Part shown: positions 62,483 through 63,983 of the stretch, in pieces | How the letters are laid out: every line of letters starts with the position of its first letter | How positions within the stretch are numbered: the first letter of the stretch is position 1 | NCBI GenBank assembly: GCA_021825925.1 | Contig: JAKAFP010000002.1 | Span: 372,001-436,000 of the forward strand | Direction: 5' to 3' | DNA: 64,000 nt | DNA from: Chloroflexota bacterium | GTDB lineage: Bacteria; Chloroflexota; Anaerolineae; Anaerolineales; Anaerolineaceae | The notes under the pieces: generated by a model | What the model was told of the DNA's origin: nothing | Databases searched by the model: none | What the model saw: only the letters and a program-made list of their open reading frames with translations | Program-made: the position numbers and the translations under genes

Positions 62483-63055
62483 TTAATCTCGTGGAACATC
62501 ATGATGCAGACGACAGCGTGCTTCATACATCTCGGATGCCCCGACAATAATAATGGGATCGTTGTAGCGAGCGGGTTTACCATTCACCAATCGTTGTGAC
62601 CTGCTGGCAGGTTCTCCGCATACCATGCAGATGGCTTGAAGTTTCAAAACCTGTTCTGCTTTCGCCATAATAACAGGCATGCTTCCAAAAGGTTCCGCTT
62701 TAAAATTCAGGTCCAAACCGGCTACGATAACTCGAATCCCCTTTTCGGCCATGGTTTCAACCACGTTGGCGATTTCATCATCAAAGAATTGTGCTTCATC
62801 AATTCCAACAACGGTGGTATCCGGTTCAATCAGCGGAAAAATCTGATCAGCTTTTTGAACAGGAGTGGCAGCAAAATCAGAGCCAGCGTGGGAGGTCACT
62901 TTTTCAACGCCGTAACGCAAATCAATCACTGGTTTGAATACCTGAACTTTTTGTTTTGCGATGGTCGCCCTGCGAAGTCTTCTGATCAATTCATCTGTTT
63001 TTCCACAAAACATGGAACCACAAATTACTTCAACACTGCCGGTATGATGGGGCAT
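62483..63055 (-). CDS. tdk: Thymidine kinase
   Basis: 190 residues. The P-loop GSMFCGKT (13-20), [12 protein letters not shown] and the zinc ligands CMVC and the C-terminal RCRLHH match type II thymidine kinases. GGAGG precedes the ATG at 63055. It starts the salvage run tdk-hpt-cca, with 18 nt to hpt. Confidence 0.95.
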
Positions 63056-63126: not shown

Positions 63127-63157
63127 AAAAACACCCCCGGTAAATTACCGGAGGTGT
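63127..63157 (-). terminator. Terminator of the L31 fusion gene
   Basis: ACACC-CCGGTAA pairs with TTACCGG-GGTGT with one mismatch around a one-base loop or shorter stem. On the minus strand TTTTATTATC follows. It begins 18 nt after the stop. Confidence 0.8.
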
Positions 63158-63174
63158 CTGTAAATCAATTGTGA

Positions 63175-63651
63175 CTAGACAACAATTTCATCTGCAGCAG
63201 AGGGCAATTCGTAACCCAACTGGCGCAGGCTTTTCTTCATGTCAATCAAGGATTTTCGTCCAAAACCTTCGATGGCGAGCATGCCTGCTTCACCTTCGCC
63301 CATTTTGGCGATCAGCTTGCCAATAGTGTCAAGTCCGGCTTTTTCAAGCGCTTCGGTGGCACGGGAAGGCAGACCAATTTCCTTGACGGAACGATCGGGA
63401 GATACTTTTGAGGTTTCGCGTGCTTTTTTCTCTTCGACATATTCTTGACGAGCTTGAAGCTTCTTGTAGAAGCGATCAACCTGGCCTTCAATGTCAATCA
63501 TACGCTGCTGTTGGCCGGTAAAGAACGGATGGCACTTTGAGCAAACCTCGGTATGAATTTCTTTACGTGTTGAGCCCGTTAACCAGGTGTTTCCGCAAGA
63601 GCAGACCACTTTGGCATCTGGGTAATATGTCGGGTGAATTCCTTTTCTCAT
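63175..63651 (-). CDS. Ribosomal protein L31 fused to an RNA polymerase alpha-CTD-like domain
   Basis: 158 residues, twice the normal L31 length. Residues 1-68 are a zinc-type L31 with [20 protein letters not shown] (C17, C19) and [10 protein letters not shown] (C37, C40). A charged linker (68-86) leads to a domain (86-150) that resembles the RNA polymerase alpha C-terminal domain: [26 protein letters not shown] and [19 protein letters not shown]. In E. coli alpha, that fold contacts UP elements and regulators. The frame is uninterrupted. Followed by the terminator at 63127; rpmA is 68 nt upstream. Confidence 0.85.
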
Positions 63652-63719
63652 TTCGCTGACCTTTCTGATGTGGTTATTTTTTACAATTGTCTCGAAAGAC
63701 GGATTTGTAAAAACCTGGG

Positions 63720-63983
63720 TTATTCAGAGACAGCTGGTTTTACATGAACCTGTTTCTGACCATTGGGCAGGGTGTCATATTCCACCACGCCTTGAGCAAC
63801 TGCGAACAAAGTATCATCCGTGCCGACCATTACGTTCAAACCCGGTTTGATCTTTGTTCCGCGCTGCCGAACAAGAATGTTGCCTGACAGCACATTTTCT
63901 CCGGCGAATTTTTTTACGCCGAGCCGTTGTGCATTTGAATCACGGCCGTTACGACTAGAGCCACCACCTTTTTTATGTGCCAT
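63720..63983 (-). CDS. rpmA: 50S ribosomal protein L27
   Basis: 87 residues, complete. [20 protein letters not shown] is the classical N terminus and [15 protein letters not shown] the core. It lies at the peptidyl-transferase centre. The upstream gene (usually rplU, L21) is beyond the window edge. The L31 fusion follows 68 nt downstream. Confidence 0.97.

Follow-up and report, generated by a model that had tools for sequence, protein, structure and literature searches.

The locus analysed here raises two questions: is a ribosomal protein bL31 truly fused to a domain of the type that ends the alpha subunit of RNA polymerase, and, if it is, what may such a domain do on the ribosome? The stretch of DNA that was analysed, hereafter the window, comprises 64,000 nucleotides of a Chloroflexota bacterium of the family Anaerolineaceae. 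bL31 sits at a moving intersubunit bridge, and in much of a bacterial class it has gained a folded domain of nucleic-acid-binding type. Among open-licence papers, no description of an L31-alpha-CTD fusion was found.

Sequence, predicted fold and genetic context

A preliminary description of this DNA had read the frame at 63175..63651 on the minus strand as L31 joined to an alpha-CTD-like domain. The open reading frame is indeed present there; it encodes a 158-residue protein (rpmE), and both Pfam and NCBIfam assign two domains to it. Residues 1–65 (63457..63651, minus strand) form a canonical zinc-type bL31, matched by Ribosomal_L31 (PF01197) with an E-value of 2.8e-26 and 91.9 bits against a cut-off of 27, while TIGR00105 scores 82.6 bits at the L31 N-terminus (cut-off 38.35). 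The cysteines C17, C19, C37 and C40 (CxC...CxxC) are invariant across 53 aligned L31 sequences. A linker (residues 66–84; 63400..63456, minus strand), lying mostly within one long helix predicted by AF2 (47–82), leads to an alpha-CTD-like helix-hairpin-helix domain at residues 85–150 (63202..63399, minus strand). This domain, recognised by PF03118, Foldseek and alignment columns, carries a GFGRKSL hairpin and the basic residues K139, K140 and R143. RNA_pol_A_CTD (PF03118) covers residues 82–143 with an E-value of 2.1e-9 and 37.4 bits, above its cut-off of 23.8. The L31 and rpoA models of NCBIfam concur with the Pfam assignment, and a phmmer search of solved structures returned both bL31 chains and alpha chains.

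The profile similarity was compared with several controls. Against an HMM built from the RpoA CTDs of Anaerolineae, the tail of the window L31 scores 44.3 bits, shuffled tails reach at most 10.5 bits (2000 made, 1718 scored) and tails of short L31s of the class at most 3.9 bits (21 given, 19 scored). All 119 long-L31 tails score at least 21.9 bits, the split into short and long L31s having been made by eye and the 119 containing repeats of the same genes. The PF03118 cut-off is passed by five of five divergent L31s and by neither of two L31s without the domain. The similarity to alpha-CTD claimed in the preliminary description therefore holds, over the cut-off and above both the shuffle and the short-tail controls.

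The AF2 model (mean pLDDT 74.2) shows the L31 ribbon (strands within residues 10–34), then a long helix (47–82), then an alpha-CTD fold of five helices (89–144); with a pTM of 0.41 and a shallow alignment of 53 sequences as input, it does not fix how the two domains stand to each other. When the model was submitted to Foldseek, bL31 chains ranked first (23 matches, E up to 0.001) and alpha-CTD chains came next with E about 2e-3. The best alpha-CTD fit was 9dvt_A (E 2.4e-3, TMt 0.87, rmsd 1.1 A over 62 columns, 22% identity). Structure prediction thus agrees with the helix-hairpin-helix domain that had been proposed. The added domain is under purifying selection: in pairs of 13 same-genus sequences the median pN/pS is lowest in L31 (0.072), against 0.199 in the CTD and 0.269 in the linker, with synonymous sites close to saturation in many pairs.

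The protein shares with zinc-type bL31 (PF01197, TIGR00105) its residues 1–65, the CxC and CxxC pairs, the gene next to bL27 and the single copy. It differs in that its C-terminal extension is a second folded domain; solved L31 chains, compared by length only, have 30–148 residues. A Shine-Dalgarno-like AAAGGT, found by eye, lies 7 nt 5' of the ATG (63659..63664, minus strand). Directly 3' of the stop codon stands an intrinsic-terminator-like hairpin of 14 pairs, 7 of them GC (63129..63159, minus strand), a consensus match only, since the scan of the region gave 2 sites versus 1.9 expected by chance. The upstream gene (63720..63983, minus strand) is presumably bL27 (rpmA), and the downstream gene (62483..63055, minus strand) is one that we take, from its sequence, to be thymidine kinase-like. 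bL21 is found past the window edge (TIGR00061; L212:5990-6325), and the gene order is bL21-bL27-bL31. The genome has a single L31 copy, plus an RpoA with a CTD of its own.

Distribution of the fusion

The preliminary description had asked whether L31 of related genomes carries the domain. In 38 of the 41 nearest genomes, a set that counts the window's own, the match covers the domain and ends no earlier than residue 149; in one of the 38, G017, it starts only at residue 16. The remaining three are G002, in which the match is interrupted by an NN scaffold gap, and G007 and G029, which have no L31 match. Exactly one L31 is found in 60 of the 61 genomes of the order and none in the other; judged by frame length, none of the 60 genes lies in an open frame shorter than 152 codons. 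The 80 named loci comprise 52 that are full length with the frame kept, one (L074) that is broken by a gap and 27 without the domain. Six of the 52 belong to named strains, namely Thermanaerothrix daxensis, Bellilinea caldifistulae, Leptolinea tardivitalis, Longilinea arvoryzae, Pelolinea submarina and Ornatilinea apprima. At the level of the class Anaerolineae, matches that extend at least to residue 135 were counted by eye in 88 of 298 genomes; this is a lower bound, as the matches listed reach only down to an E-value of 7e-30. The fusion is fixed in a large part of this class. It is genuine and long conserved, as profile, predicted fold and comparative tests all indicate. A sequencing or assembly error joining two neighbouring genes, by frameshift or chimera, is refuted because the fusion recurs across independent genomes and strains; no point was found in its favour, and its probability is negligible.

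Some other families of the class have an L31 without the domain: 21 L31s sampled from other class genomes end in charged or proline-rich tails and measure 79–264 aa in total. For 175 Chloroflexota genomes outside the class (of 201 in the phylum), none of the matches listed runs past residue 104, and five of these genomes have no L31 match at all. Outside Chloroflexota, coverage consists of one six-pattern scan, the 27 domain-less L31s of which (L075-L101) include Patescibacteria, WOR-3, Thermotogota and a Lachnospiraceae bacterium.

Three apparent irregularities have simple explanations. The split gene in G002 (the same record as L074) is due to the NN scaffold gap, and a second L31 copy in G012 to contig overlap. 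Sungbacteria L083 was matched to residue 146, but its L31 ends at 69 aa and there is no fusion. Separately, G029, which belongs to the same order and is 94% complete, has no detected L31. The L31 of 264 aa (L135, from G078) carries proline-rich repeats in place of the domain.

Relationship to the C-terminal domain of RpoA

The added domain had been called polymerase-type. The fold, an alpha-CTD-like helix-hairpin-helix, bears this out; a plain transplantation from RpoA is less probable, as both the tree and the loss of two DNA-contact residues speak against it. We take the DNA-contact set of the alpha-CTD, from E. coli work, to be R265, N268, N294, G296, K298, S299 and E302. Each of the 30 RpoA CTDs aligned from the class retains all seven equivalents. 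Among 100 distinct L31 CTDs, the equivalent of R265 is kept in 95, N268 in 17 and N294 in none (G in 99), with G296 kept in 98, K298 in 84, S299 in 70 and E302 in 8 (D in 78). The window protein has R, E, G, G, K, S and D at these positions and thus lacks the full set. Canonical DNA binding by the L31 CTD is unlikely, given that few of these domains retain the N268 equivalent and none the N294 equivalent. All 93 distinct CTDs of the main L31 clade have K or R at positions 139, 140 and 143, which are variable in the 30 RpoA domains. This basic triad is absent from a second cluster of seven sequences (f30, f55, f59 and G126), which was delimited after the tree had been seen. The mean net charge of the L31 CTDs is just +0.5.

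In a tree of 60 columns, the class's RpoA CTDs group together in one clade (99/94) that contains no L31 domain. That the L31 domain arose once is not rejected (p-AU 0.099; 0.076 with the RpoA N-terminal tree). In both trees the carriers split into f1/f34/f49 on one side and f30/f55 on the other, and the L31 domain of G126 groups with the NusA of the same genome (94/88, 60-column tree). Because the tree separates the RpoA CTDs and two DNA-contact residues are lost, we call the domain alpha-CTD-like and not a plain polymerase copy. With the RpoA alpha-CTD (PF03118) it shares the fold, the GxGxKS hairpin and the R265 equivalent. It differs in that it is not in an alpha subunit, falls outside the class RpoA clade in this short-alignment tree, lacks N268 and N294 in the window protein and has, in the main clade, a new basic triad.

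The same module on other proteins of gene expression

The same module has also been added to other ribosomal and polymerase proteins in the class. A PF03118 scan of 61 Anaerolineae genomes showed that G139 (family f20) and G113 (f58) encode bS16 and bL21 proteins ending in the same domain; the two proteins of G139 score 60.1 and 51.6 bits in Pfam. Each of these genomes has four PF03118 matches, which are RpoA, NusA, bL21 and bS16, and with the four so accounted for, the scan detected no L31 fusion in either.

bL21 with a C-terminal alpha-CTD-like domain is encoded in families f20 and f58 (L238:1001-1582 and L237:912-1616, both plus strand; also loci L246 and L247). Its matches span the whole domain in at least four of 150 genomes (G139, G045, G212 and G113), and two further matches run to residues 163 and 149 of the query (G187 and G193). 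G187 contains a bL21 (L115) with a different added C-terminal region, presumably of the PRK12278 type, alongside an L31-alpha-CTD protein. bS16 with the domain occurs in families f20, f54 and f58 (L229:975-1562, minus strand; L232), with matches also in L266 and L267. These matches reach the domain end in at least three of 120 genomes (G139, G045 and G081), the bS16 of G113 being known from its ORF, and others stop within the query domain at residues 152–171 (G076, G106, G074, G153, G135 and G093). A sequence-pattern look for bS16 in L266, L267 and L270 found none, and the bS16 of G045 and G081 is placed by the matches alone.

NusA with at least one alpha-CTD-like domain was seen at nine loci (L224-L228, L231, L233, L234 and L239), of which L239 was confirmed by Pfam as NusA plus PF03118 and the other eight were named by eye. 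In each of six ORFs read (L217-L220, L235 and L236), the domain also lies inside a protein that we take, from its sequence, to be beta', with about 720–740 residues of the open frame before it. A PF03118 match in a beta'-sized ORF occurs in 12 of the 61 class genomes, eight over the family cut-off and four under it. None of these 12 is among the 13 counted carriers of the L31 domain, but the comparison, with six of the 12 ORFs read, covers too few independent families for a complementarity of the two to carry weight.

Known models offer partial parallels. PRK14906, a 1459-position beta' model of NCBIfam, matches the added domain of L31 at about positions 1315–1370, likewise an alpha-CTD-like segment on a gene-expression protein, but on a polymerase subunit and not a ribosomal one. 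The long bL21 models of PRK12278 (216–223 positions) also describe a ribosomal protein extended at its C-terminus, but they cover only the first 129–134 residues of the bL21-alpha-CTD found here. The bL21 and bS16 fusions of f20, f58 and f54 share with the L31 fusion the module, the class and a ribosomal carrier, and differ in the carrier protein.

Possible role of the added domain

bL31 contacts 5S rRNA and uL5 with its N-terminus, and uS13, uS14, uS19 and 16S h42 with its C-terminal part, according to PMC7530986. In E. coli, as PMC9966373 reports, the last eight residues of bL31 contribute to subunit association. The window protein is most probably a 50S component like any bL31, because it is the only L31 found in its genome, as is the rule in the order (60 of 61 genomes). 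The fused protein would sit in ribosomes as usual: the N-terminal ribbon would rest on the central protuberance of the 50S subunit and the C-terminal part on the head of the 30S subunit. The long helix would put the extra domain most likely on or beside that head, because this is where the C-terminal part of bL31 sits. There, the hairpin and the basic last helix would hold RNA, probably the 16S rRNA of the head, and the extra anchor on the bL31 bridge could stabilise subunit association or restrict head movement. We tentatively favour this reading, in which the domain is a tether that binds RNA where bL31 meets the 30S head and so anchors the bridge, with a likelihood that we place a little below even. 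RNA is preferred to promoter-type DNA because two DNA-contact asparagines have been lost and a basic helix gained, and rRNA binding, one of two roles suggested in the preliminary description, would suit the three last-helix positions that are always basic in the main clade. Against the tether speak the low mean charge, the missing triad of the second cluster, the families that do without the domain and the 16S rRNA itself, which shows no expansion. The 16S comparison started from 45 genomes, of which 26 matched and 20 with a full-length 16S were used (25 dropped). Between 11 carriers and nine non-carriers, four of which (G067, G177, G266 and G274) were classed by a weak L31 match alone, head segments differ by at most 4 nt, with no rRNA expansion accompanying the domain, and the h41 region differs by 1–2 nt with overlap between the two sets. 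If the domain does bind rRNA, it shows how ribosome bridges get rebuilt. Ribosome structures are obtainable, since named strains carry the fusion.

The domain could instead make protein contacts, either between ribosomes, as in disomes or 100S particles, or with a factor of hibernation or recycling. Domains of the helix-hairpin-helix type are able to bind proteins. E. coli makes few 100S particles when bL31 is missing, according to PMC9966373. The sequence indicates no partner, and the basic triad suggests RNA more than protein; we regard these contacts as unlikely.

Less likely again is a coupling, the other role suggested in the preliminary description, in which the domain projects from the 30S head to RNA polymerase, its factors or DNA, and so tethers the ribosome to transcription. 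The fold found by Foldseek is that of an alpha-CTD, the equivalents of R265, G296 and K298 are mostly kept, and such coupling stays conceivable because the module decorates both machineries of the class, on RpoA, NusA and beta' as well as on bL31, bL21 and bS16. But N268 and N294, kept in every RpoA CTD aligned, are retained in few and in none of the L31 domains, which makes canonical DNA binding unlikely, and the ribosomal positions of bL31, bL21 and bS16 are so distant from one another that a common partner site is not obvious. Binding to polymerase or DNA would nevertheless provide a directly testable case of transcription-translation coupling.

We are equally doubtful that the domain is a harmless appendage, held by folding constraints in a class where bL31 tails grow readily. 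The length range of the domain-less L31s sampled, the faster evolution of the domain compared with L31 and the recurrence of module fusions would agree with this, but the domain is kept across many families of the class, its basic residues are invariant in the main clade, and no L31 frame of the order falls below 152 codons.

A broader reading, in which the module has been grafted repeatedly onto the ribosome (bL31, bL21, bS16) and the polymerase (NusA, beta') of Anaerolineae as a shared docking domain that ties ribosomes to transcription in a manner unlike NusG-uS10, seems to us quite improbable.

A minor observation concerns the zinc site of the L31 part. The L31 of locus L243 is devoid of both the zinc cysteines and the added domain; in those of family f49 (L150, L151 and L168) the zinc cysteines are absent and the added domain is kept.
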